Of a stretch of 64,000 bases of DNA, positions 14,798 through 62,583 are shown piece by piece. Origin of the DNA: a virus; the IMG/VR virus record IMGVR_UViG_3300027708_000026, positions 62,001 to 126,000 of that record. The stretch is one strand, 5' to 3'. The notes beneath the pieces are model-generated. The model was not told where the DNA came from, ran no database searches, and was given only the letters and a program-made list of their open reading frames with translations. A program made the position numbers and the translations under genes. Position 1 is the stretch's first letter, and the number at the start of each line of letters is the position of its first letter.

Positions 14798-17700
14798 GTG
14801 GCACTAACTCCAGTAAATCAGGATTTTAATGTAAACAACGGACTCGTTGTTTTAGGCACAAGTGCGGTTACAAGTTCAACTGATCAGACTAATGCACTAC
14901 AGGTTAATAGTGGCGCTGCTGTTGCCCAAAATTTAATTGTTGGCACTGACGGAAAAATTTACGGAAATTTTGAAGTAGTTGGTACTACCACACTAGGCAA
15001 TACAGTTCTTAGTACATCTACTGTCAGCGGTGATTTAACTGTGACAGGCGAGATAATTGCAACACGATTAACAATACAATACACTACAGTTACTACCGCA
15101 TTAGTCACTACTGATGATATAATATCAACTTATAACACTACATCATCTACTGGTACGACTACCGGCGCATTGGTCATTGCCGGCGGTGTGGGCATTGGCA
15201 AAGATGTATTTGTTGGTGGTAATGTTACTGCTCCTAGATTTTTAGGAACTGCTACTACAGCAAAAAATTTAGAAGGCGGCAGCACCAATAGTATACCATA
15301 TCAATCTACTGCCGGATCTACGGTATTTTTACCTGTTGGTTTAGACGGTACTATACTTGGAGTAGTCGGGCAACAACTGACATGGACTAGCTCTGCAGGT
15401 GCGACAGTCGGCAATGCAAACACTGCAACAAACTTAGCAGGCGGAACCAAAGGAGCAATACCTTATCAATCCGATGTTGGCCAAACAGCTTTTGATGCTT
15501 CTGGATTGAAATATGTCAGCTCGTTGACACAACTAGTAACCAATAATATTTTAGTAACCAGTTCAGCATCTGGAACCACTATTGGTGGCGGGGCAATATC
15601 AGTCACAGGCGGCGCATATTTTGGAAAAGATGTTTACATCGCAGAGACTGGCATGGGTGCATTTACTGTAGCAGGTTATGCGGCTATCGGTAAAAGATTA
15701 ACTATATTAGATTATACAGATGCATCAAGCACTGGCACAGGGGCTTTGATCGTATCTAATGGCGGTGCATACATATCTCAGAATGTATATATTGGTAGTA
15801 CGGTAACTGCTGCCAACGCACGTATTACTTCTTTGGGCAATAATCGGTTAATTTATTCAGATACTTCCGGAAATTTACAAAATACAGTAGTTACCTATAG
15901 CACACAAACGCTACAATTATCTGGAACTATAACCAATGCTCTATATGCAGGTACTGCCACTTACGCGATTACCAGTGCATTTGCGACTACTAGCGGATAC
16001 ACATTATCTTTTAATACTGGCACACTAGTAACAAATGCTCTATATGCAGATACTGCCACTTACTCGATTACCAGTGCATTTGCGACTACTAGCGGATACA
16101 CATTATCTTTTAATACTGGCACACTAGTAACAAATGCATTATATTCAGTCACTGCTACTTATGCAACTATAGCATTGGGGTTTAATACTAATACATTGGT
16201 ATCATCAGCGGTCACAGCATCTTATGCAACAAATGTACTCGGCGGCTCATATGGAAGTGTATTATATCAAACAGCAACTAATCAGACTGCTGCATTACCT
16301 ATAGGCGGCGAAGGTACAATATTAGCGATTGTCAATGGTATATTGGGTTGGGGAAATCCTTCAGGATTTACAGTAAGTACCGCGACTAATTTTAATGGTG
16401 GTCAGGCTGGATCGATACCATTTCAAACGGGCTCTGGACAAACATCATTTGACGATCTAAACTTAAACTTCCATCTTCCTTATACACCAGATGCGATTTT
16501 ATCCGCAAATAAATTAGCAGTAACTAGTACTACAAATAGTATTTCATCAATAACTGGTGCATTAGTAGTATCTGGCGGTGTCGGAGTAAAAGGTGATATC
16601 TATGTAGGCGGTGCTATATATTCTAACGGTCAAGCAGTATTAACTGGCGGGACTGGTACTGGTTTCGTTAGCAACATAGTTGCAGGTACTGGAATAAGTG
16701 TATCCTCATCAACTGGTGCTATCACCATTTCCAATACAGGTGTACTGACGTTAACAGCTGGTACTGACACATCATTGAGTACTTCGACTGGTAATATTAC
16801 AGTATGGAATAATAGCACATTACAGAGTGTAACTTCTAGAGGATCAAGTACCAATAGAATTATTACAATATCTAATAATACCACTGCATCATCTACACAG
16901 TCTGCGGCATTGGTAGTAACTGGCGGAGTTGGTATTGGGCAAAATGTTTATATCGGTGGCAAGATAAATGTTGGTGGAAACATATTGCCAACAACTAGCA
17001 CAGTTAGTTTAGGAACATTAGAAAATCCGTTCGCAGATTTATATTTAGGATCTAATTCTTTAAACATTGATACTGTTAGATTTTCTGGAATTGGATCAAC
17101 ACTAACTATAACAGTAATACCTACTCCACCTACCTATGCTACTATCCCGGCTACATTAAATATTGGGAATATTTTAATTACGGGTGCGACTAATTCAACA
17201 TCAACAAATACTGGATCACTACAGGTTGCTGGTGGCGCCGGTATTGCTAAAGATATTCAGGTTGGCGGCAGTGCGATAATTGCGAATACATTATCTATAT
17301 TCAGCACACTATCTAGCACAACAACTATATTCCAAAATGCGTTATACGTAGCAGGTGGTGTTGGTGTTGGTAAAAACTTACTCGTTACTGGTGAAGCGGT
17401 ATTCCAAAATAATGTAACATTTAACGGCACAACGACCTATGTGTTGAGTACAAATAGTGTTTACACTGACAATATTATTGAGTTACATTATCCTAACACT
17501 CCGGGAAATACATGGACAGTCAATGATAATAATGATATTGGATTACGATTCCATTATTATGATACACAAGATCGAAATGCATTCCTAGGTCGAGATAATG
17601 CCACTGGCTATTTAGAATGGCTAGTTAACGCCGGCCCTGATAATACAGCAAACGTCACAGGTACTAATGGGATATTTAGATTAGGCAGTATTATTTTAAC

Positions 17701-20700
17701 AAATACCACTGCATCAACAAATACAGCTACTGGGGCGCTAACAGTCGTAGGCGGAGTTGGAATAGGCGGAGATTTACAAGTTGGTGGCACGATTTATAGA
17801 AATGGAATATCTGTAGGTTATGGATATACTGGTAGCGTCGGTCCGCAGGGACCTATAGGATATGCAGGAAGTTCCGGTGCAGGTGGTGGCACTGGTTATA
17901 CCGGATCAATCGGCCCACAAGGACCGCAGGGATATTCGGGATCGGTTGGACCACAGGGACCGCAGGGGGTAACAGGCCCGCAAGGACCTCAGGGATATTC
18001 GGGATCGATTGGACCGCAAGGCGCAACTGGATATGCGGGTTCAACTGGCACACAAGGAATTACTGGTTATACTGGTTCAATTGGATCTACTGGTACACAA
18101 GGACCTATAGGATATGCAGGAAGTTCTGGTGCAGGTGGCGGCACTGGTTATACTGGTTCAATTGGATCTACTGGTACACAAGGACCTATTGGATATGCTG
18201 GATCTATTGGCCCACAAGGGCCGCAGGGATATTCTGGATCAGTTGGATCTACTGGTACACAAGGACCTATTGGATATGCTGGATCTATTGGTCCACAGGG
18301 GATACGCGGGTATGATGGAAGCCGCGGGCCGCAAGGGCCACAGGGCGTAACCGGACCACAGGGCCCGGTTGGATACACTGGTTCAATTGGATCCACTGGT
18401 ACCATAGGATATTCTGGATCAGTTGGATCCACTGGTACTATAGGCTATTCGGGTTCAGTTGGCGCACAGGGACCTATCGGATACACTGGATCAGTTGGAT
18501 CTACTGGTACTACAGGTTATGCTGGCTCAGTCGGATCCACTGGTACTATAGGCTATTCGGGTTCAGTTGGATCTACTGGTACTACAGGGTATGCTGGTTC
18601 AATTGGATCCACTGGTACACAAGGACCTATTGGATACGCTGGATCTATTGGCCCACAAGGGCCGCAGGGATATTCTGGATCAGTTGGATCTACTGGTACA
18701 CAGGGACCTATTGGATATGCTGGATCTATTGGATATGCTGGGTCAGTCGGATCCACTGGTACTATAGGCTATTCGGGTTCAGTTGGATCTACTGGTACTA
18801 CGGGGTATGCTGGTTCAGTTGGCTTAACTGGATCGTTTACAGGTACAACTACATCAACAGTTTTTATCAATAACACGACTACATCAGTCAGTACAAATAC
18901 CGGCGCTCTGACCGTAGCAGGTGGTGTTGGCATAGGCGGTGCTGTTTATATTGGGACATCTTCCTATATTGCTGGCGCACAGATCATTACCACTGCCACT
19001 ATTGGAAATTACGCTAGCGGCGGCAGTACTAGTTCAAGTGGTATATCAATATACGATGAAGGTATTCAAATAGCATCGACAGTGACTGCTCTTAACTTTG
19101 TTGGAGACGGCGTTATAGCTACAACTTCAACTGCTGGAGCTATAAAGTTTGTTGGAAATACTCAATGGTTAAGTATTCCATCTGTCGCAGGATTAAATTT
19201 AGGCGATCCTAGTTACCCCGGCGCCCTAGACGGGCCAAACTTTACAATTGAATTTTGGATGTACGCCACTAGTTCTGCTACCGATGTGTACATAATGGAT
19301 AAAGATGGGATTGCAGGCCTATCATATGCTGAATACGGATTTAAGTTATCGACCTTAAGAGTAGTAACATTTTATGTTGGGCATGGTGATAATGCCGGCA
19401 CCCAGTATGGTGGGGAGCAAAATTTCACAGTAGGCACAGTCGCATTGAATACCTGGTATCATGTGGCTGCAACACAATCGGCCACAAATCAAATTAAAAC
19501 ATTCCTTAATGGCACATTAACTGGCACTACTACAAGAAATCAAAGGATGGTTGATGGCGGTAAAGCGTTATTAATAGGCTGGTGTCAAGATCAAGCAACT
19601 AATACTCGATTTACTGGATATCTAACTAACATTCGAATTGTCAAAGGCACAGCACTTTATACGAATACCTTTCCATTGCCCGCCGCCGCACTGACCACAG
19701 TCACAAGCACTGCACTTTTATTAAATGCCGCCAGTCCTGCATCTTTTCTCGCAGATGGTAGCACAAATAACGCCAGCATAACCAACAACGGAACAGTCTC
19801 GTTTGTCAGCAGCTCGCCACTCTTTGCAGGTGTAACAGTTACTATACCAAGTTTTTCAGTATCGAGTGTTTCGTCAAATACACCAAGATATCTAACATTC
19901 GTCTCCACTACCACTGGATCTGCAAGTGCAGAAACAACAGCTACCGGATTATTATATGTTGCAAATAGAGGTATAGCTATTGGCACAAGCACAATAACAG
20001 CATTAGCTGATCCAATGGGATTGGCCGGAGGTTATATTAGGGGCAAAGTTTTAGATCTCTACGGTGGTTTATATATTAGACAAGTGGGCTCTAGCATTAT
20101 TTCGTCAAATTATCTGGGTCAAGGTGTTTACGACAATACCACTTACATTAATGCAGGCGGCACTAACAATAATTTTATTTGGCAGATAAATGGCGGCCAA
20201 AAGATGTACCTATCAAATGCTGGATATTTTGGCATTGGGACATCTCCAATATCCGATTTACATTTACAAGGCTCACAATTTAGACACAATGATGTCAGCG
20301 GGTGGAACACTTATACATTTACTGTATTACCAGGAGTGGTACAACTAGCATCGACTGCCAGTATTTCAATTCAGTCAGCTAATGTTTCCATCACTTCAAC
20401 TGCATCAAGCACCGGTACTACAACAGGAGCATTACAAGTTGTGGGCGGCGTTGGCATTGGTGGAGATTTATATTTTGGTGGAATAATTTCTGGAGGTGGA
20501 GTTAGAACAAGTACTACCACAACTACACCAAATCCTGCAAGCGTAGGAGACGTTTGGTATTATCAAGGCACTGATGTAGTTTATAGATACCAATATGATG
20601 GAACAACCAGTACATGGGTAGATGTAACTGGACCTAATCTCATTGGATTGTATCAATATCAAGGCAATGCTGCATCAACTCCTGCCTATCTATCTGCTGC

Positions 20701-21070
20701 TTCAGGTAATAATTTTATAACACCATCAGTAGCATGGGCAGCAGCAGCACCTGTAGCATTAACTGATGCAGCGACAATACCTGTGGATTTAAGTGCGGGA
20801 ATGAATTTTACCTGCCTGTTAACCAGCGGAGTTGGCACAACAAGAAAGTTAGATAATTTTGTAAATCCTAAACCAGGACAAACTGGATGGATAATGTTTA
20901 CACAGGGTGCAACTGGAAACAATAATGTCACATTTGGTAATAACTGGCATTGGCCTCTAGGAACCACTGGAACATTTTCTACATCAACTGCCAACGCCGT
21001 AGATATTTTATTTTATACAGTTCTAACACCAACATACTATTTAGGTAATATGGCCAATAGGGTGGTATAA
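14798..21070 (+). CDS. giant collagen-like tail fibre with LamG-like domain
   Basis: A 2090-residue fibre starting at GTG (GGGAAG lies upstream). From N to C: about eight GGVGIGG-type repeats spread through residues 110-1000 with a perfect-looking 33-residue tandem duplication near 380-445; a collagen-like Gly-X-Y region at about 1009-1346; another GGVGIGG repeat; a concanavalin/LamG-like domain near 1475-1665 ([12 protein letters not shown] ... [11 protein letters not shown] ... [17 protein letters not shown]); a further repeat; a Trp module ([10 protein letters not shown]); and a C-terminal beta domain ending in WHWPLGTTG...[11 protein letters not shown]. Collagen-like rods are known to trimerise phage fibres, and LamG-like folds bind sugars, so host-surface binding is likely but not shown. 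Confidence 0.75.
15935..16132 (+). repeat. 99-bp tandem duplication (two copies)
   Basis: Two adjacent 99-base copies differ at only a few positions; a third, partial and diverged copy follows. Each encodes a 33-residue unit containing [20 protein letters not shown]. The high identity suggests recent duplication within the fibre gene. Confidence 0.85.
17822..18835 (+). repeat. collagen-like Gly-X-Y coding repeats
   Basis: About 338 codons of continuous Gly-X-Y triplets, with recurring blocks such as [14 protein letters not shown] and [14 protein letters not shown] blocks of several dozen bases are near-identical, so copy number is likely to change by recombination or slippage. Confidence 0.9.
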
Positions 21071-50019: not shown

Positions 50020-51075
50020 ATGGGAAAGGCTTTTGATATAAGCAAGTTCCGGAAGTCTATCACTAAGTCTATTGATGGACTTGGTATTGGATTTAACGAT
50101 CCAACTGATTGGATTTCTACCGGAAACTATGCATTAAACTATCTCATCTCGGGGGACTTCTTTAGGGGAGTTCCTTTAGGTAAGGTTACGGTGTTCGCTG
50201 GCGAAAGTGGTGCTGGAAAGAGTTATATCTGTTCTGGAAACATTATTCGACATGCCCAAGAAGCGGGTATATTTGTTATCTTAGTTGATAGCGAAAATGC
50301 GCTAGACGAAAAATGGTTGATTGATTTAGGTGTTGATACTAATGAAGATAAACTGCTAAAACTTAACATGGCCATGATCGATGATGTAGCAAAAACTATA
50401 TCTGAATTCATGAAAGAATACAAATTGATGCCAGAAGAATCTCGTCCAAAGATTCTTTTTGTCATTGATAGTTTGGGTATGTTGTTGACTCCTACTGATG
50501 TGAATCAGTTCGAAGCAGGCGAGATGAAGGGTGATATGGGCCGCAAGCCCAAGGCACTGACAAGTCTCGTTCGTAACTGCGTGAACATGTTTGGCTCCTG
50601 GAATGTTGGTTTAGTTTGTACTAATCACACATACGCAAGTCAGGACATGTTTGATCCAGATGACAAAATCTCAGGTGGACAAGGTTTTATCTATGCTAGC
50701 TCTATTGTAGTTGCTATGCGTAAATTGAAATTGAAGACCGACGAAGATGGTAACAAAACTACCACCATAAATGGTATTCGTTCAGCCTGTAAGATTATGA
50801 AAACACGCTATGCTAAACCTTTTGAATCAGTACAAGTTGAGATTCCATATTCGACGGGTATGAGCCCATTTAGTGGTTTAGTTGATTTGTTTGAAGCCAA
50901 AGGCAAGTTGAAGAAAGAAGGCAACAGTCTTGTTTACACAACTAAGGATGGCGAAATCATCAAGCAATTCCGCAAAGCGTGGAACAGTAATGACAAAGAT
51001 GGACTAACTACAATTATGGCTGAGTGGGAAGAAACAGCAACACCAATAACTATAGAAGAAACAGAGGAAGCATAA
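50020..51075 (+). CDS. uvsX: RecA-like recombinase UvsX
   Basis: Strand-exchange ATPase for recombination-dependent replication. The Walker A motif GESGAGKS is at residues 61-68 and Walker B is in ILFVIDSLGML near 150. GDMGRKPKALTSLVRN and VCTNHTYASQDMFDPDDKIS follow the UvsX pattern, including the loop before the DNA-binding region. At 351 residues it is shorter than T4 UvsX (391), mainly at the ends. AGGAG lies upstream of the ATG. The gene sits directly after gp32, with uvsY two genes on, forming a compact recombination cluster. Confidence 0.94.
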   Translation: MGKAFDISKFRKSITKSIDGLGIGFNDPTDWISTGNYALNYLISGDFFRGVPLGKVTVFAGESGAGKSYICSGNIIRHAQEAGIFVILVDSENALDEKWLIDLGVDTNEDKLLKLNMAMIDDVAKTISEFMKEYKLMPEESRPKILFVIDSLGMLLTPTDVNQFEAGEMKGDMGRKPKALTSLVRNCVNMFGSWNVGLVCTNHTYASQDMFDPDDKISGGQGFIYASSIVVAMRKLKLKTDEDGNKTTTINGIRSACKIMKTRYAKPFESVQVEIPYSTGMSPFSGLVDLFEAKGKLKKEGNSLVYTTKDGEIIKQFRKAWNSNDKDGLTTIMAEWEETATPITIEETEEA

Positions 51076-51317
51076 TGGAAGAAGATCTAATCATTGAAAT
51101 CTGGGATGTGTTCAAAGAATATATCTCTGATAAAAATAAGGACACCGCTGCAAATCATTTTGTAGATTTCTTATTAGGTAAGGATGTTGAAACTGATGTA
51201 CTGAAATCATTAGTGGGTTATGATTCATCCTTAGATGAAGCAATCGCATTGGTCATCGATGAGGGTGAAATCGATGATTACGAAGACGACGACGGTTACT
51301 ACGAAGAAGAGGACTAA
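51075..51317 (+). CDS. small acidic protein between uvsX and uvsY
   Basis: An 80-residue protein starting at the ATG overlapping the uvsX stop (TAATG), so its translation is likely coupled. A helical N-terminal part (DLIIEIWDVFKEYISDKNKD ... FVDFLLGKDVETDVL) is followed by a very acidic Asp/Glu/Tyr tail (DDYEDDDGYYEEED). No known domain is recognised. The acidic tail could mimic DNA or bind the basic recombination proteins made next to it; this is speculative. Confidence 0.65.
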   Translation: MEEDLIIEIWDVFKEYISDKNKDTAANHFVDFLLGKDVETDVLKSLVGYDSSLDEAIALVIDEGEIDDYEDDDGYYEEED

Positions 51318-51319
51318 CA

Positions 51320-51775
51320 ATGTCCTGGTATGCTAAAGTCAGCAAGGACATAGCACACCTTCCAGATTGTCTAGATCATTACTATAATGAAATAGAACTT
51401 GCGCGGCGAGAAGTTAAAATCCACGGCAGTGTGGAAAAAGCTTCTGCCGCCTTGCCTGGAATCGTTGAACAGAGATTTAATCAGCTTCAAGAAATTGAAG
51501 CTGTATTAGAATATCTTAACATCGAACTACGTCGAATCAAATCCAAAACTTTTAGAAAATATCTAGAAAACTATCAACGTGCGCTGAGTAGTAGAGACTG
51601 CGAAAAGTTTGCCGAAGGCGAGCCTGATGTTGTAGATATGGAAAAAGTTATCAACGAGTTTGCCATGTTGAGGAATCAATGGCTGGGCATCATCAAAGGC
51701 TTAGACATCAAACAATGGCAATTGAGCAATATTATCAAATTAAGGGCTGCGGGTCTTGAAGATATCTCATTATGA
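51320..51775 (+). CDS. uvsY: recombination mediator UvsY
   Basis: Loads UvsX on gp32-covered DNA. The 151-residue helical protein is close to T4 UvsY (137). It starts 2 bases after the acidic gene. Helices with Leu/Arg/Lys alternate (LEYLNIELRRIKSKTFRKYL) and the N-terminal HLPDCLDHYYNEIELARREV fits a UvsY-type helical bundle. Position between uvsX and uvsW supports the call; sequence similarity to T4 UvsY judged by eye is moderate. Confidence 0.72.
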   Translation: MSWYAKVSKDIAHLPDCLDHYYNEIELARREVKIHGSVEKASAALPGIVEQRFNQLQEIEAVLEYLNIELRRIKSKTFRKYLENYQRALSSRDCEKFAEGEPDVVDMEKVINEFAMLRNQWLGIIKGLDIKQWQLSNIIKLRAAGLEDISL

Positions 51776-51790: not shown

Positions 51791-52975
51791 ATGTACATTG
51801 AAGACTTAATCATATCTCTAATACACAATCGTGTGCCAGTGAACGCATGGGATAAGGGTGTTGTTGTCAGCTTCTACACACAGATCCACGATCTTACCGG
51901 CTTCACTGAAAAGCAGTCGGCATTGGCTTTGAGAATATGTAAAAGATATGCTTCATCTCTTTCCTTACACGCCAAACAAGATGTTACGCCATTTTTAGAA
52001 AATCCAAAATTTCGTAATACAATTAGGAAATCAGTGAACAGTCGAATTATTAAAATAGTTGATGATGAATACTTACATCGAGTTATCGAAGTTAATTTTC
52101 CCTATGATGAGAAAATGATTGCAGAAATCAGAGAATTCAAAAATCAAAATCATGATAATCTTGTGGTATGGAGCAAGGAAAAGTCTTCATGGTCGTTCTG
52201 TTTGAATGAGCCAAACATTAAATTCTTATCAGATCATTTTAAAAATACTGGTGCTGATATTGATATGGAATTTCAAAATTACTCCGATCAGTTAGAACCA
52301 ATTGTTTCTAATCTTCAAAATCATATTCCCATGTTGACTGCTAGAGATGGGAGATTGGCTATTACTAACGCTCCTAAAACTATGCCAGAAATCAAAACTG
52401 GAAATATATTAGAAGCAGTATTTGCTGCTAGACAGTATGGTATTACCATGTGGGATGAAACGATTGATGATTTTATAAACAGCGATTATGTCGATGAATC
52501 CACTAGGGAATTCTTGAAATCAGATTATCGAGCTACAACTAAGTTATCAGCGGATGGAAATGGCATCTGTTGTTTAGGAAACATGGCGAGATTTTTAGGA
52601 CCAATGTTGTTTATCATTCCGGGCGGAAGCGAATACCGTAAGATACAGCAAATACATACTGTGCTAAGTGATATAGGAATAACCGATAAAAAAATGAGTG
52701 TTTTGTTCAGATTAAGCAGCGAAACCGGCAGAGAATTTAATGATTTTGTTAAAAATCATTCATTAAATAACCCTATTTCTGAAGAGACACAGGTAGTGTT
52801 TGTAAGTGGTAAGTTACCTAAACCATTGATTGAATCTGGAATACGATTCAACAGCGTGGTGAATGTTGGATTTAATAATGCCCATTATACCCTAAGAGAA
52901 TATGCAAAAAATCATCAAAATGTAGTATACTTTGAACTAGAAAAACAAAAGGGATCAGATTTTGGCCACATGTAA
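51791..52975 (+). CDS. unknown protein between uvsY and uvsW, with HARP-like segment
   Basis: A 394-residue protein. The ATG at 51791 is preferred to an upstream GTG at 51776 because the latter lies inside the promoter. Residues about 91-144 (IEVNFPYDEKMIAEIREFKN, later VWSKEKSSWSFCLNEPNIKF) resemble the HARP domain found in annealing helicases (SMARCAL1), where a Y...W-F-L pattern binds forked DNA. The C-terminal part (LFIIPGGSEYRKIQQIHTVL ... NSVVNVGFNNAHYTLREYAK) has helicase-like beta/alpha alternation but no Walker motif. It overlaps the uvsW start by 14 bases, so a joint role with UvsW in fork remodelling is plausible. Function is unproven. Confidence 0.6.
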   Translation: MYIEDLIISLIHNRVPVNAWDKGVVVSFYTQIHDLTGFTEKQSALALRICKRYASSLSLHAKQDVTPFLENPKFRNTIRKSVNSRIIKIVDDEYLHRVIEVNFPYDEKMIAEIREFKNQNHDNLVVWSKEKSSWSFCLNEPNIKFLSDHFKNTGADIDMEFQNYSDQLEPIVSNLQNHIPMLTARDGRLAITNAPKTMPEIKTGNILEAVFAARQYGITMWDETIDDFINSDYVDESTREFLKSDYRATTKLSADGNGICCLGNMARFLGPMLFIIPGGSEYRKIQQIHTVLSDIGITDKKMSVLFRLSSETGREFNDFVKNHSLNNPISEETQVVFVSGKLPKPLIESGIRFNSVVNVGFNNAHYTLREYAKNHQNVVYFELEKQKGSDFGHM

Positions 52976-54422
52976 AGTTGTTATTAAAGATGAAGTCAAT
53001 GTTAAGATAGAAAATCTAGACTTAGATACACGCAAGGCATTGGTCAAAAAATTCAAATATGAGGATCCATCTGCTCGATTTAGGCCCAGCTATAAACTAG
53101 GTAGGTGGGATGGTAGCATCAGCTTCTTTGGATTAGGCGGTACTACCTATATGAGTATGCTAGGTCCGGTGTTAGAATATCTAGAAAGCAAGAATTTTTA
53201 CATCGAAGTAGAAGATCATCGAACTAGTGAGCCCTTAGAATTTCCTGAAATCTTTGAGGACTTTTGGGGAGACCAAACATGGCCCGAAGGACATAGATTT
53301 GCCGGAGAGAAGATTGTGCTGCGCGATGACCAAGTGGATGTTATCAATAAATTTTTAGCCAATCCTCAATGCATTCAAGAAATTGCCACAGGATTTGGTA
53401 AAACTATTACTACTGCCACGCTGTCGAAGATTTGTGAAAAGTATGGACGCACTATAACTATCGTTCCAAACAAAAGTCTAGTGGAACAAACTGAAGAGGA
53501 TTTTGTCAACTGTCAATTAGATGTAGGTGTGTATTACGGTGATAGGAAAGATCTAGACAAGACGCATACAATTTGTACCTGGCAGAGTTTGAACATACTA
53601 GATAAAAATTCTAAAAATTGGGACGAAGCGGCGTGTGCTCGATTAGAAATGTTATTGGATAATGTACAATGCGTTATGGTCGATGAAGTGCATATGGCCA
53701 AAGCTGAAGTGTTAAAAAATCTACTGACTCGCAATCTTTCAAGGACACCAATTCGGTGGGGATTGACTGGCACTATACCCAAAGCCGAACATGAGTTCCA
53801 AAGCATCCGTGCAAGTTTGGGCGAGGTAGTTAATAGAGTTGCTGCACATACTCTACAAGAGGCCGGAGTGCTTAGTAACTGCCATGTCAATATTATACAA
53901 ACCGCTGAATGGAAAGAGTTCGGTAGTTATGCGGAAGAACTGAAATATCTAGTAACTGATCCAACTCGCATGAATTATTTGTGCTCATTGATACAGGGAA
54001 TTTCAGAAACGGGAAATACACTGGTCTTAGTCAATAGGATCGAGTCTGGCAAAACTATGGCAGAGAAATTAACTGATGCAGTATTTGTATCGGGCGAAGT
54101 TAAAACTAAAGATAGAAAAGCAGAATATGATGAAATTAAGACAGTTGACAATAAGATTATTGTGGCGACTTACGGTGTGGCCGCTGTGGGTATTAATATT
54201 CCTAGGATTTTTAATCTGGTTCTTCTGGAGCCCGGAAAGAGCTTTGTACGAGTTATACAGTCGATTGGGCGAGGTATTCGAAAAGCAGACGACAAAGATT
54301 TCGTAACTATCTGGGATGTAACAGCAGCCAGCAAATACGCCAAACGTCACCTGACAGAAAGAAAGAGATTTTATAAAGAAGCCAAATATCCATTTACGAT
54401 TGAAAAAGTAAAATATGTATAA
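52962..54422 (+). CDS. uvsW: RNA-DNA/branch-migrating helicase UvsW
   Basis: Superfamily 2 helicase that unwinds R-loops and remodels forks, ending origin-dependent replication in T4. The N-terminal DNA-binding domain shows FRPSYKLGRWDGSISFF, typical of UvsW. The motor has Walker A IATGFGKT (about 142-149), DEVH (about 240), a Thr-Gly-Thr motif (WGLTGTIPK) and motif VI QSIGRGIRK (about 433). It is 486 residues (T4 about 500). The start appears to be TTG at 52962 within the preceding gene; no ATG lies close. It belongs to the uvsX-uvsY cluster. Confidence 0.92.
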   Translation: MATCKVVIKDEVNVKIENLDLDTRKALVKKFKYEDPSARFRPSYKLGRWDGSISFFGLGGTTYMSMLGPVLEYLESKNFYIEVEDHRTSEPLEFPEIFEDFWGDQTWPEGHRFAGEKIVLRDDQVDVINKFLANPQCIQEIATGFGKTITTATLSKICEKYGRTITIVPNKSLVEQTEEDFVNCQLDVGVYYGDRKDLDKTHTICTWQSLNILDKNSKNWDEAACARLEMLLDNVQCVMVDEVHMAKAEVLKNLLTRNLSRTPIRWGLTGTIPKAEHEFQSIRASLGEVVNRVAAHTLQEAGVLSNCHVNIIQTAEWKEFGSYAEELKYLVTDPTRMNYLCSLIQGISETGNTLVLVNRIESGKTMAEKLTDAVFVSGEVKTKDRKAEYDEIKTVDNKIIVATYGVAAVGINIPRIFNLVLLEPGKSFVRVIQSIGRGIRKADDKDFVTIWDVTAASKYAKRHLTERKRFYKEAKYPFTIEKVKYV

Positions 54423-58118: not shown

Positions 58119-58303
58119 ATAAGCCAAAACAAGGCAGTAGATGGATTGGTAGCGGGAGTCACGAAGTATTTCGAGTACTGAATACTATTGACATGAAAGA
58201 TGGACATACCTGGGTACACTACTGTAAAGAAAATGACGGGGATCAGAACTACAGTTGCTACTTAGAAAGTTTTTTAGAACGATTTACAGAAACCGTTAAT
58301 TAA
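58115..58303 (+). CDS. small SH3-like conserved protein
   Basis: A 62-residue protein overlapping the preceding gene by 4 bases. The pattern GSRWIGSGSHEVFRVLNTI ... WVHYCKE ... YSCYLESFLERF is that of short phage proteins with an SH3-like beta barrel. Function unknown. Confidence 0.6.
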   Translation: MNKPKQGSRWIGSGSHEVFRVLNTIDMKDGHTWVHYCKENDGDQNYSCYLESFLERFTETVN

Positions 58304-58312
58304 TGCTATAAT
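58283..58312 (+). promoter_or_regulatory. sigma70-type promoter TTTACA-N18-TATAAT
   Basis: -35 at 58283-58288, -10 TATAAT at 58307-58312. The ATG of the DnaE-like gene at 58318 follows 5 bases later. Confidence 0.65.
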
Positions 58313-58317
58313 AATGT

Positions 58318-58905
58318 ATGCCTGATATCGATGTAGACTTTGCCAATCGTGATGATATTTTAAACATTATCAAACACATACCTGCGGCTATTCGTGATAA
58401 GGACACACTGAAAAAACATAACACTGGCGTATACTGTTCCACTATCCCCTATAATCCATTAACTGATACTGCCAGTATCGATTATAAAACTGCCGACGAA
58501 CGTGGATATTTTAAGATAGATTTTTTAAATGTTGGAGCATATCACGGAGTCAAGAACGAAGAACATTTGAAGCAGTTGCTTGACATTGAACCGCTATGGG
58601 ATTTGTTAGAATCTAAAGATGTGTGCGATCAATTATTTCACATCAACGGATATCATAACTTGTTGGCAGATTTAAAACCTAAAAGTATCGTTGAACTAGC
58701 CATGGTCCTGGCCATGATCAGACCCGGCAAAAAATATCTCGTCCCAGTATGCAAGGAACAAGGATTCCAGGCCATCAATGATGAAATATGGACTAAGACT
58801 GAGGATGCCTATTTCTTCAAGAAGGCCCACGCCATATCGTATGCGTCGGTTATTGTAGTTCAACTTAACCTCCTATGTGAGCGTATTAGCTGCGGGTACT
58901 CTTAA
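58318..58905 (+). CDS. miniature DNA polymerase III alpha (DnaE/family C)-like protein
   Basis: A 195-residue protein that reads as a condensed bacterial replicase. MPDIDVDF (residues 1-8) matches the DnaE palm motif PDFDVDF with catalytic Asp 401 and 403 in E. coli; HNTGVY (34) matches HAGGVV; FKIDFLNV (Asp 68) matches KFDFLGL with Asp 555. LFHINGY...LLADLKPKSIVEL, LAMIRPG (131-137) and FFKKAHAISYAS (166-177) match FQLES...LKP, LALYRPGP and FNKSHSAAYA. PHP, thumb, most fingers and clamp-binding parts are missing, and 152 residues between catalytic Asp motifs shrink to 61. An in-frame stop just upstream (58312-58314) fixes the start. Whether it polymerises DNA or is a regulator or decoy is unknown. 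Confidence 0.75.
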   Translation: MPDIDVDFANRDDILNIIKHIPAAIRDKDTLKKHNTGVYCSTIPYNPLTDTASIDYKTADERGYFKIDFLNVGAYHGVKNEEHLKQLLDIEPLWDLLESKDVCDQLFHINGYHNLLADLKPKSIVELAMVLAMIRPGKKYLVPVCKEQGFQAINDEIWTKTEDAYFFKKAHAISYASVIVVQLNLLCERISCGYS

Positions 58906-59269
58906 CTGCCCTAACTAGTTGTATTGATTTTCTTTTTATTCTTTTTTCGGCAATTTCACTGAGATTAACAGTGGGGCCAAATACCACTTCGATATCTTTG
59001 CTGCTGAATGTTTTTATCGTATACCTAAATGCCTGCATTTCTTTTTTTAGGAAAATATTAATAGGTATTCGACGATTGCTCTCCCACCACCATATTTCAC
59101 CTAATTCTAAAAAAGCCAATCGATCTTCCTCAGTTTTAACAGTGGATATATCGTAGATACTAGTGATATAGTCATCGAAATTAATGACGATTCCCACATA
59201 TTCTATGTTATTTGATTTAACACAGGAGATGAAGGGATGATTTTCTTGGAAGGTATTGGGAACAGCCAT
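58886..59269 (-). CDS. conserved hypothetical protein, late region neighbour
   Basis: A 127-residue minus-strand protein starting MAVPNTFQENHPFISCVKSN; this start is preferred to a longer frame because upstream codons overlap the divergent gene. It contains EYVGIVINFDDYITSIYDIS, then GEIWWWESNRRIPINIFLKK, a pattern that I recall from short proteins of aquatic T4-like phages. The 3' end overlaps the DnaE-like gene by 20 bases in convergent orientation. Function unknown. Confidence 0.6.
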   Translation of the reverse strand: MAVPNTFQENHPFISCVKSNNIEYVGIVINFDDYITSIYDISTVKTEEDRLAFLELGEIWWWESNRRIPINIFLKKEMQAFRYTIKTFSSKDIEVVFGPTVNLSEIAEKRIKRKSIQLVRAVKSTRS

Positions 59270-59273
59270 TATC

Positions 59274-59281
59274 AATAAATA
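59274..59281 (+). promoter_or_regulatory. late promoter AATAAATA touching the start codon
   Basis: Five bases separate it from the ATG at 59287; it lies in a 17-base gap between divergent genes. Confidence 0.62.
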
Positions 59282-59286
59282 CTTGT

Positions 59287-60123
59287 ATGCAAAGTTTACC
59301 AATCTATTTATACGAAAATATTCTGGCTGTAACATTAGATTTGGATACAACAGTCCGGGGAGTCAATCAAGTCATGTATCAACGCGATTTACAAATACAA
59401 AAGGGCATCAAAAACGTAGTCCGAATACAGTTCAAAAACAGCAATCAAAAGCGAGTCCCGATAACAGACGCATCTGTTTTCATATTCTCCATGTTTGATG
59501 CTGTCAACAACCGATTGCTGGTAGAAAAGCAACTCACAATCTTAGATGACGGATCTACTCTAGCTTTAAAAGGTCTCGCAGAATTGACATTGACTGAAAG
59601 CGATACCATGGATCTACCAGTATCCAGTTATCAATTTGTGATCAAGCATCAAGATCCAACTGACGGAACTTACTTGCCAACTTACGCAGATACCTACTAT
59701 GGTGTCAGTGGCAGGCTTCATTTAAAACAAGATGCTTATCCAATTTTGCAGCCCAGTCAGGAAATCGTCAGCTTCAATCGCAGCTACAACTCATCGATTG
59801 CCAAATACGAACACTCTTCCGGTAGTGTGTATGCTTATCCAGAGTTCAATGGAAACCAAGCACTTCATACCATGGCTATCTACATGAAGAAATTTAAAGG
59901 TACGGTTTATATTCAAGGAACACTTTCTAATATTCCGGGATTCAACTATTCAACTATTAGCACCAAAGTATACAATGGATTTAGCGGAATTGATTACGTC
60001 AATTTCAACGGAGTATACACATACGTTCGGGCATACTATGTGCCCGCAACTGCCCCAGCAGAATCTATGAACGATAATACTGCTTTCTACGGATCACTTG
60101 ACAAAATACTGTATAGATGCTAA
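59287..60123 (+). CDS. virion structural protein (baseplate/fibre type)
   Basis: A 278-residue protein under a late promoter although it lies among replication genes. Residues 30-150 (MYQRDLQIQKGIKNVVRIQF, then VPITDASVFIFSMFDAVNN, LALKGLAELTLTESDTMDLP) are like the N-terminal Ig-like domain of BppU-type baseplate proteins. The C-terminal half is a second beta domain (MAIYMKKFKGTVYIQGTLSN). Similar structural proteins occur in marine T4-like phages. The next gene's promoter lies in its last 30 bases. Confidence 0.65.
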   Translation: MQSLPIYLYENILAVTLDLDTTVRGVNQVMYQRDLQIQKGIKNVVRIQFKNSNQKRVPITDASVFIFSMFDAVNNRLLVEKQLTILDDGSTLALKGLAELTLTESDTMDLPVSSYQFVIKHQDPTDGTYLPTYADTYYGVSGRLHLKQDAYPILQPSQEIVSFNRSYNSSIAKYEHSSGSVYAYPEFNGNQALHTMAIYMKKFKGTVYIQGTLSNIPGFNYSTISTKVYNGFSGIDYVNFNGVYTYVRAYYVPATAPAESMNDNTAFYGSLDKILYRC

Positions 60124-60131: not shown

Positions 60132-61136
60132 GTGAACGAAATACAGTCAACACTTCAAGCATTACTGCCTTCCAAAAAGAAATCTACCCTAAGCGGTTGG
60201 GATTCTTTTAACGCACCCTGCTGTCACAATCGCGGAGAAACTCGCGACAAACATCAGCGCGGCGGTATACGCATAGAGAAGGATGGCTTCGTTTTCCATT
60301 GCTTTAACTGCGGATTTGCTGCTGGATGGACTCCCGGTAAATTACTGAGCAAAAATACCAAAGACTTATTCAAATGGCTGGGATTGGGTGAACTTGATAT
60401 AGGCAAACTTAATTTGGCAGCACTCAAGATCAAAGATGATCAACCAGTATTCAAAAAGCCTCTAAACTTTACATTGGAAGAACGACCTTTACCAGAAGGC
60501 GCTATGCTACTCAAAGAGTGGGCATTGGCGATTTGGCGTCCTGGCCAAGATGCAGACATGGTTCAAGTGTTTGAATACCTTGTCAGTAGAGGCATGGAAC
60601 TCGATTGGTATGATTGGATGTGGACTCCTGCTGCTGGATACAAGGATCGATTACTTATACCTTTCTATCACGATGGTAAAGTAGTTGGCTACACTGGTCG
60701 TAAGATAACTGAAGGCAAGCCAAAATATCTAACAGATGCTCAATCTGGTTATGTATTCAACTTGGATCGTCAGACTAGAGACAGGGAATTTGTCATAGTA
60801 GTTGAGGGTCAGTTTGATGCCATAGCAGTTGACGGATGTGCCATAATGCACAACGATCCCAATGACACACAGGTGACTAGGCTGAATGCCATGGGCAAAG
60901 AAGTAATAGTCGTACCGGACAAGGATCGCCCGGGTGCAAAACTTGTCGCCGCTGCCATAAAGAATAAATGGAGTGCCAGTTTGCCCCCGTGGGAAGATGA
61001 CATAAAAGATGTCGCCGATGCAGTCAAACGATATGGCAGAATATACACATTAACCACGATATTGAACTACAAGGTTAGTGGCGAGATAAATTTACATCTA
61101 CTTAAGAAGAAACTAGAGTCTATAACCAATGAATAA
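60132..61136 (+). CDS. gp61: DNA primase gp61
   Basis: Makes RNA primers for the lagging strand with helicase gp41. The 334-residue DnaG-type protein (T4 gp61: 342) begins with a zinc-binding domain (Cys 30/31 and His 32, then Cys 57 and Cys 60 in CCHNRGE ... FHCFNCGF). The TOPRIM catalytic core has VVVEGQFDAIAVDG (Glu near 224) and VIVVPDKDRPGAKL (the Asp-X-Asp pair). The GTG start is at the predicted transcription start. Its end overlaps the helicase gene by 8 bases, which suggests coupled production of the primosome pair. Confidence 0.93.
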   Translation: MNEIQSTLQALLPSKKKSTLSGWDSFNAPCCHNRGETRDKHQRGGIRIEKDGFVFHCFNCGFAAGWTPGKLLSKNTKDLFKWLGLGELDIGKLNLAALKIKDDQPVFKKPLNFTLEERPLPEGAMLLKEWALAIWRPGQDADMVQVFEYLVSRGMELDWYDWMWTPAAGYKDRLLIPFYHDGKVVGYTGRKITEGKPKYLTDAQSGYVFNLDRQTRDREFVIVVEGQFDAIAVDGCAIMHNDPNDTQVTRLNAMGKEVIVVPDKDRPGAKLVAAAIKNKWSASLPPWEDDIKDVADAVKRYGRIYTLTTILNYKVSGEINLHLLKKKLESITNE

Positions 61137-62583
61137 AAAAGAAAAAACACCCAAGCCAAACTATGATTTGGCCATGCAAAAATTATATATCGAAATGTTT
61201 TTGTCCGATGGAGAAACATTCATGCGCTGTCAAAATATTTTCGATCCGTTAAACTTTGATCAAAGACTACAAACAGCAGCAGAATTTATCAACAAGTATG
61301 TCGATGACTACAAAGTCATGCCCGAGCCCAGTATCATTAATGCTGCAACTCGCAGCACCTTTGAGGGTATAGCATTGCCCAAGGAAAATTATGAATGGCT
61401 GATGGATGAGTTTGAAAACTTCAGCAGACATAAAGGATTAGAACGAGCAATCATTGCCAGCAGCGATTTACTTGAAGCTGGCGATTATGGTCCAGTGGAA
61501 AAGCTGATTAAAGATGCCATACAGATCAGTTTGAATAAAGACATGGGCACTGACTATTTTGCAGATCCCAGAGCTAGACTGATGGCATTGAAAGATGGCA
61601 ATGGTCAGATCAGCACAGGGTGGCCTAGTGTGGATAAGAAACTATATGGCGGATTCAATCGTGGAGAGTTGAATATCTTCTGTGCAGCATCAGGTGGTGG
61701 TAAGAGTTTGTTCTTGGCCAACCTAGGTGTGAATTGGGCACTGATGGGATTGAATGTTATCTATCTAACTTTTGAATTGAGTGAGCGATTAGTGGCCATG
61801 CGTGTGGACAGTATGACTACTGGCATTGGTACAAGGGACATTTTTAGAAATATCGATGATGTCGAACTCAAAGTAAAGACTTTGCAAAAACGCAGTGGAC
61901 ATCTGCAAATTAAGTATATGCCTAGTGGCAAAAATTGCAACGATATTCGAGCCTATTTAAAGGAATATCAGGTCAAATCAGGTGTGAAACCAGACGTTAT
62001 TTTAATAGATTACTTGGATTTAATGATGCCTTTGTCAGTGAAGGTAAGTCCCAGCGATTTGTTTGTTAAAGACAAATATGTGTCGGAAGAGATTAGAAAT
62101 TTGGCAATGGAAACACAATGTATCACAGTGACTGCCAGTCAGTTGAATCGTAGTGCGGTTGAGGAAATTGAATTTGATCACAGTCATATTAGTGGCGGAT
62201 TGAGTAAGATTATGACGGCGGATAATGTGATTGGTATTTTTACTAGTCGTGCAATGAAAGAGCGCGGACGCTATCAGATACAGTTTATGAAGACACGCTC
62301 CAGTAGCGGTGTGGGCCAAAAAGTTGATTTAGAATTCAACTTAGAAACTTTGCGAATAAGCGATTTGGATGAGGAAGAAGACGGCGGTATTAAAAAGCCC
62401 ACTTCAAATAGTGTATTGGATGGATTGAAAAGAACTAGCGTAGTTACCACAAGCACTGATAGTAACAAGTGGGAACGTGCAACTCCCAAGGAAGGGTTCG
62501 ATCTTGCCAAACCTCAACCCCCAAAAACTTCAGGCCCGTCAATTAGGACCATGCTTAATAATCTACATCCCGAAAAGGATTAG
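61129..62583 (+). CDS. gp41: replicative DNA helicase gp41
   Basis: DnaB-family hexameric helicase that drives the fork. Walker A is AASGGGKSLF (about 186-195), Walker B VILIDYLDLMMP (near 290), followed by TASQLNRSAVEE (motif H3) and the arginine-finger region near MKTRSSSGVGQKVDL. The N-terminal helical domain (about 1-130) is present. Length is 484 residues (T4 475). It overlaps the primase gene and ends convergently on an AlgH-like gene with a 4-base overlap. Confidence 0.93.
   Translation: MNKKEKTPKPNYDLAMQKLYIEMFLSDGETFMRCQNIFDPLNFDQRLQTAAEFINKYVDDYKVMPEPSIINAATRSTFEGIALPKENYEWLMDEFENFSRHKGLERAIIASSDLLEAGDYGPVEKLIKDAIQISLNKDMGTDYFADPRARLMALKDGNGQISTGWPSVDKKLYGGFNRGELNIFCAASGGGKSLFLANLGVNWALMGLNVIYLTFELSERLVAMRVDSMTTGIGTRDIFRNIDDVELKVKTLQKRSGHLQIKYMPSGKNCNDIRAYLKEYQVKSGVKPDVILIDYLDLMMPLSVKVSPSDLFVKDKYVSEEIRNLAMETQCITVTASQLNRSAVEEIEFDHSHISGGLSKIMTADNVIGIFTSRAMKERGRYQIQFMKTRSSSGVGQKVDLEFNLETLRISDLDEEEDGGIKKPTSNSVLDGLKRTSVVTTSTDSNKWERATPKEGFDLAKPQPPKTSGPSIRTMLNNLHPEKD

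Follow-up and report, generated by a model that had tools for sequence, protein, structure and literature searches.

The locus described here raises the question of what a phage protein of 195 residues can do when it retains the catalytic palm motifs of the bacterial replicase DnaE and little else of that enzyme. An earlier note on this DNA, made from the letters alone, had proposed three roles for the product, namely a minimal nucleotidyl transferase, a partner of the phage replisome or a mimic that disturbs the host replicase. We examined the gene in its window, a stretch of 64,000 nucleotides representing positions 62001-126000 of a viral source record of 144,907 bases, and compared it with phage isolates, environmental viral contigs and polymerase structures. 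The reading frame is intact, with start and stop codons confirmed, and it is not part of a longer frame, as the earlier note had stated: an in-frame TAA (58312-58314) lies upstream of the ATG, and a 14-bp gap separates the ORF from the preceding gene. The product, here called the C-half, contains a DxD motif, an H34/G37 motif, a third catalytic Asp, the base of the fingers and an FKKxHxxxYA helix (Table 1).

To evaluate the likeness of the C-half to DnaE, we relied on family profiles. The protein matches PHROG 11778, annotated 'DNA polymerase', over profile positions 8-194 of 197 (E=1.6e-63), and it also matches PHROG 405, a full-length DnaE-like family (E=2.8e-6). When a profile of 73 relatives was compared with the PDB, significant matches were obtained to the DnaE chains 5lew (2.5e-5) and 7pu7 (7.3e-5), with aligned pieces that comprise MPDIDIDF, the K-x-D-F-L/RPG region and the F-x-K-x-H helix. 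Alignment of this profile to E. coli DnaE with hhalign placed positions 38-138 on residues 528-642 (E=5.6e-4), at a modest probability because the E. coli side was a single sequence. A single-sequence search of the PDB with the C-half returned no match and was uninformative, and the match in a Pfam search remained below the Pfam cut-off; the case for DnaE therefore depends on the family profiles, by which the resemblance is well above chance. The order of DnaE motifs read earlier from the letters, which starts at the first catalytic motif and runs on into the fingers, is confirmed, and the homologues sought in T4-like phages are present, with relatives in 90 phage records.

Structure prediction points to the same family. 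The AlphaFold2 model of the C-half in this window has a mean pLDDT of 87 and a pTM of 0.72, and the top six Foldseek matches to it are Pol III alpha chains (probability 1.00, best E 7.4e-4), and the top 11 are all DNA polymerase entries. The highest TM-score to query, 0.52, was obtained with 3E0D, and structural alignments to Thermus and E. coli DnaE give 15-19% identity. D5 is located in a strand formed by residues 4-6 and D68 in a strand formed by residues 66-69. Confidence is low at the DxD strand, one of the poorest regions of the model (residues 1-10, mean pLDDT 66), as would be expected if the rest of the palm lay in another protein.

The alignment to E. coli DnaE, in which MPDFDVDF begins at residue 399 and VKFDFLGL at residue 552, defines the register of the active site. 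M399-P-D401-F-D403-V-D405-F of DnaE corresponds to M1-P-D3-I-D5-V-D7-F of the C-half, and D401, D403 and D555, the established catalytic residues of family C, fall on D3, D5 and D68. The earlier claim that all three catalytic Asp are kept is upheld by their invariance in the 73 relatives; the register given with it, D5, D7 and D68, has to be replaced by that of the alignment. D7, the counterpart of D405, is likewise invariant. In total, 41 columns are invariant among the 73 sequences, and these include D3, D5, D7, H34, G37, K66, D68, R135, P136, K138, F167, K168, H171 and Y175.

Table 1. Positions of the C-half, its motifs and neighbours in the window, and of related features in other phage records.
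Feature	Coordinates	Strand	Basis
C-half of split minimal DNA polymerase III alpha, 195 aa	58318..58905	+	ATG 58318, stop 58903-58905; PHROG and family profiles, AlphaFold2/Foldseek
MPDIDVDF, equivalent to E. coli DnaE 399-406; D3/D5 equivalent to catalytic D401/D403	58318..58341	+	alignment; D3, D5, D7 invariant, n=73
GYFKIDFLN; K66/D68 equivalent to DnaE K553/catalytic D555	58507..58533	+	alignment; both invariant, n=73
RPGK (R135 P136 G137 K138), equivalent to DnaE RPG 639-641, base of fingers	58720..58731	+	alignment; R, P, K invariant
FKKAHAISYAS (F167-S177), equivalent to DnaE FNKSHSAAYAL (from 756)	58816..58848	+	alignment; F167, K168, H171, Y175 invariant
UvsW-type helicase, upstream cluster member	52962..54422	+	ORF; same order in 121Q, similar in Paride; G002 gene 82% identical
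Convergent small gene, PHROG 11637 (unknown function)	58886..59350	-	ORF; tail-to-tail with C-half
DNA primase (T4 gp61-like), downstream	60132..61136	+	ORF; order as in named phages, including 121Q and Paride
Replicative helicase (T4 gp41/DnaB-like), downstream	61129..62583	+	ORF; order as in named phages; neighbour marker for C-half
Sigma-70-like TTTACA-18-TATAAT, 11/12 match, function doubtful	58283..58312	+	-10 box ends 5 bp before ATG
N-half and downstream genes	G002 50188-51347; L007 1204-2489; L009 1216-2407; L006 1195-2576		
Slickus01 halves	L230 3875-4486 and W05 79814-80041		OQ508957.1

Relative to DnaE, the C-half has lost two internal segments. Approximately 79 residues, corresponding to the thumb of E. 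coli alpha, are absent between the DxD motif (D5) and H-x-x-G (H34). A second gap, of approximately 84 residues, separates RPG from the F-x-K-x-H helix and takes in YQEQVM (686) and RRAMGKKK (from 709). After this helix the chain terminates. The earlier statement that everything else had been removed is incomplete. The C-half indeed has no thumb or mid-fingers and no PHP, OB or clamp-binding parts, but GRGS, the palm GS motif, which is likewise absent from this chain, sits in another gene, which encodes the partner protein of the relatives. Since the YQEQVM/RRAMGKKK finger segment (DnaE ~686-716) and the thumb are missing, template and dNTP binding would differ from those of DnaE, and a polymerase assembled from the two proteins would need another way of holding DNA or the help of partners.

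The GS motif, which binds the triphosphate, lies ahead of the first Asp motif in family C polymerases. Applied to whole records, Pfam PF07733 gave exactly one match above cut-off in each of four complete phage genomes. The corresponding partner, here called the N-half, is a protein of 169-180 aa that ends in ...GVGRGSSVASYVLFLIG...EFL plus one or two residues in these genomes (one to three over all N-halves) and belongs to PHROG 11127, the C-half family being PHROG 11778. The N-half profile aligns to DnaE residues 321/323-393 and the C-half starts at DnaE residue 399. By these alignments the two proteins tile the DnaE palm with zero overlap, and the C-half, as judged from its sequence, is only half of one active site. 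The N-half motif G-x-GRGS-x3-S (GxGRGSxxxS) is invariant in 19 N-halves. The model predicted for one N-half is confident (mean pLDDT 91), and its best Foldseek matches are Pol III alpha and PolC structures, although with E values no better than 0.003 and a poor overall fit (TM-score to query ~0.36-0.41). The N-half has a conserved neighbourhood of its own, in which it is followed in four phages by a gene of ~100-150 aa and then by a GroES-like gene that was identified by eye.

The distribution of the two halves was compared across phage records. Both are present in all 19 tabulated records. All six C-half viral contigs of at least 180 kb also carry the N-half, and the three contigs of 145-151 kb, including the source record, and all shorter ones searched are without it. 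Among N-half records of at least 200 kb, seven of eight contain the C-half, as do all four complete isolates. One 359-kb contig, G029, has the N-half only, and searches with PHROG 8359 and a divergent C-half profile found no alternative C-half in it. This contig and five smaller N-only contigs also do not contain the DnaB-like helicase that neighbours the C-half, for which the same search was positive in G024 and G030 at 47-55% identity; the C-half region itself is therefore probably missing from the N-only contigs. In isolate genomes the tblastn lists for the two halves overlap largely, with 34 Escherichia records in each. The N-half query probably also matches full-length DnaE in phages outside the group, so that its total of 296 does not represent a count of split systems. 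Pairwise distances of the N-half and C-half are correlated over 18 records (r=0.55, Mantel p=0.0005), a relation that vertical inheritance would also produce for any pair of genes. In all nine large viral contigs in which the family B polymerase gene was read, its DxNSLYPS and YGDTDS motifs are intact. A constant association with a DnaQ-like exonuclease is not supported, as PF00929 was positive in just 5 of 15 records.

The pair also occurs in a smaller genome. Alishewanella phage Slickus01 (OQ508957.1) is a complete circular phage of 141.6 kb, not a jumbo phage, and encodes both halves ~11 kb apart, so that the split polymerase also occurs outside the jumbo phages. The C-half of Slickus01 is located a few genes past an RFC-like clamp loader.

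Pfam PF07733 and two alignments detected no N-half in the 144.9-kb source record, and no family B polymerase was found in this record. Both halves are present in its closest large relative, G002 (221 kb), which has a C-half 81% identical to the one described here; identity of the C-half to isolates is below 50%. G002 is collinear with the source record, with source positions 31 and 120,318 corresponding to 83,416 and 202,713. Its N-half is encoded at 50,194-50,700 and its family B polymerase at 80,687-83,356, just outside the point that matches the start of the source record (83.4 kb). From this synteny, the N-half (33 kb) and the family B polymerase are predicted to lie beyond the left end of the source contig, and the N-half would be missing because the contig is a fragment. 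A very long virion-type gene with collagen-like G-x-y repeats is found at 14798-21070 of the window, and the large fibre-like genes around it vary strongly between the source record and G002.

The C-half is widely distributed, with at least 551 environmental viral contigs encoding it; relatives of the N-half are encoded on at least 596 environmental contigs, a number that may include other DnaE-like proteins. In 80 of 80 environmental relatives of the C-half the frame is intact and starts at, or a few residues from, the same motif. The median dN/dS is 0.14 (65 pairs with dS <1.2), and comparison with G002 gives a dN of 0.117 and a dS of 0.87. By these substitution ratios the C-half is under purifying selection, in keeping with the selected function that had been proposed in part from its intact frame. 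A pseudogene or frameshift product was considered and is ruled out by the 80 intact frames together with dN/dS.

The genomic position associates the C-half with replication. The gene order is a UvsW-type helicase, small genes, the C-half, a convergent small gene, a virion-type protein, primase and a DnaB-like helicase, and the C-half thus sits within the T4-like UvsW - primase - DnaB replication cluster. The arrangement is the same in Escherichia phage 121Q and largely so in Sinorhizobium phage Phosso, Pseudomonas phage Paride and Agrobacterium phage Atu_ph07. The convergent small gene in the window belongs to PHROG 11637, and a small gene on the opposite strand comes directly after the C-half in 121Q, Atu_ph07, Phosso, Paride and Slickus01 as well, the five named phages examined; the small gene is a candidate functional partner of the C-half. 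The dedicated promoter that had been assigned to the gene does not withstand comparison: the 11/12 match is present, but matches of at least 10 occur upstream of just 3 of 69 relatives, near the rate of random 70-mers, and the element is not conserved. It may be used in this phage, in which case a leaderless transcript would follow.

The co-inheritance of the halves, the exact split and the retention of the chemistry in both argue for assembly into one active site. We infer physical assembly, catalysis and a particular role from features read in the sequences, namely homology, exact tiling, catalytic invariance in both halves, purifying selection, co-occurrence and position in the replication cluster. 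The best explanation, which we consider probable, is that the C-half and N-half represent the two subunits of a minimal family C polymerase that large T4-like phages use as an accessory to the family B replicase. The N-half would be the NTP-binding part with GRGS, the C-half would contribute a reduced fingers module together with the three Asp that bind metal, and both would fold together into one active site. As the same genomes carry a motif-intact family B polymerase, the split enzyme would be an accessory polymerase, with possible roles in gap filling, repair, lagging-strand completion or primer extension, and processivity might be provided by the phage clamp or primosome. More tentatively, and as a proposal that we hold to be plausible though short of probable, two proteins of ~170-190 aa, with genes far apart in most genomes, would assemble in trans into an active family C polymerase that has no thumb, PHP, OB or clamp-binding domains, and would serve as a second replicative-type polymerase beside the family B replicase, perhaps as a survival of an ancestral form made of several chains. 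To our knowledge, an active split pair would be the smallest family C enzyme known.

Among the three roles suggested earlier, a partner of the phage replisome remains the best. A stand-alone minimal nucleotidyltransferase is not supported, given the location of the triphosphate-binding GRGS segment in a different protein, the N-half. The two halves could instead assemble as a non-polymerising nucleotidyltransferase on a Pol-beta-like palm, active for example in end modification or the synthesis of a nucleotide signal, and the small core (~190 aa added to an N-half with homology to DnaE over ~70-80 aa), which keeps the palm chemistry residues while the thumb and much of the fingers are absent, would suit such an enzyme. 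We regard this as unlikely, as the RPG and FxKxH finger motifs associated with family C template/primer handling are retained and invariant and the gene lies within the replication cluster, between UvsW and the primase and helicase. Slightly less likely again is a polymerase-derived scaffold or regulator of the replisome that has given up catalysis: a fully motif-bearing family B polymerase in the same genomes would leave room for it, but in both proteins the catalytic residues (the Asp and GRGS) are invariant even among very divergent members, a constancy that a scaffold would not require.

The remaining alternatives treat the C-half as a fragment. A short piece with sequence like bacterial DnaE could act as a dominant-negative palm, that is, as a mimic or inhibitor of the host replicase, an option also raised in the earlier note. 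It has no positive support and is very improbable, given the conservation of the acidic triad, the partner, the split site and the placement of the gene within the replication cluster of the phage itself. The complementary N-half is present in large enough records, the active-site residues are kept, identity to Thermus and E. coli DnaE is just 15-19%, no host-subunit binding domain was recognised, and the gene lies among replication genes. The big internal deletions relative to DnaE might also suggest a decaying remnant of a once full-length dnaE, a reading we discount almost entirely in view of the 80 intact frames starting near the same motif, the median dN/dS of 0.14 and the 41 invariant columns in 73 sequences.

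The earlier note was unsure whether such a protein had been described, and it has: Iyer et al. (2021) reported from genomes of group 2.2 jumbo phages a minimal Pol III alpha that is split in two and accompanied by a family B polymerase, and proposed that it synthesizes one strand or functions in repair (PMC7824862). The system described here is the same, with distant genes for two proteins, the N-terminal one binding NTP and the C-terminal one Mg2+ and template (PMC7824862), and differs in that the present member is found on a 144.9-kb environmental contig that holds the C-half alone. Pol III alpha-like proteins had been reported earlier in Pectobacterium phage CBB (CBB_328, 172 aa; truncated) and Agrobacterium phage Atu_ph07 (gp316), and the excerpts of these two papers present one alpha-like protein each and describe no pair (PMC5259590, PMC6102473). 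CBB_328 is most probably the N-half of the split system, because the N-half match in CBB carries the annotation 'DNA polymerase III alpha' and 172 aa is a fitting length. We found no experimental work on the split polymerase in the open-access literature, most subscription papers being outside the search. New here are the exact tiling, the identity of the deleted segments, the extent of the family in environmental contigs and the presence of both halves in a complete non-jumbo phage of 141.6 kb.

As in bacterial DnaE, the phage system has GRGS (in the partner), PDxDxDF, H-x-x-G, KxDFL, RPG and FxKxH in identical order; unlike DnaE, it is encoded by two genes rather than one, and its proteins have no thumb, mid-fingers, PHP, OB or C-terminal domains. 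If the pair is active, family C chemistry would be separable from nearly all of the domains thought necessary for replication, and the two halves would provide a small system for studying this chemistry. Activity would also mean that phages use polymerases of families B and C side by side, with implications for the origin of replicative polymerases. Weak signatures of the N-half or C-half were also observed in PHROG 11165, 13169, 7513 and 8359 (217-782 aa), which may represent further reduced or differently split family C polymerases.
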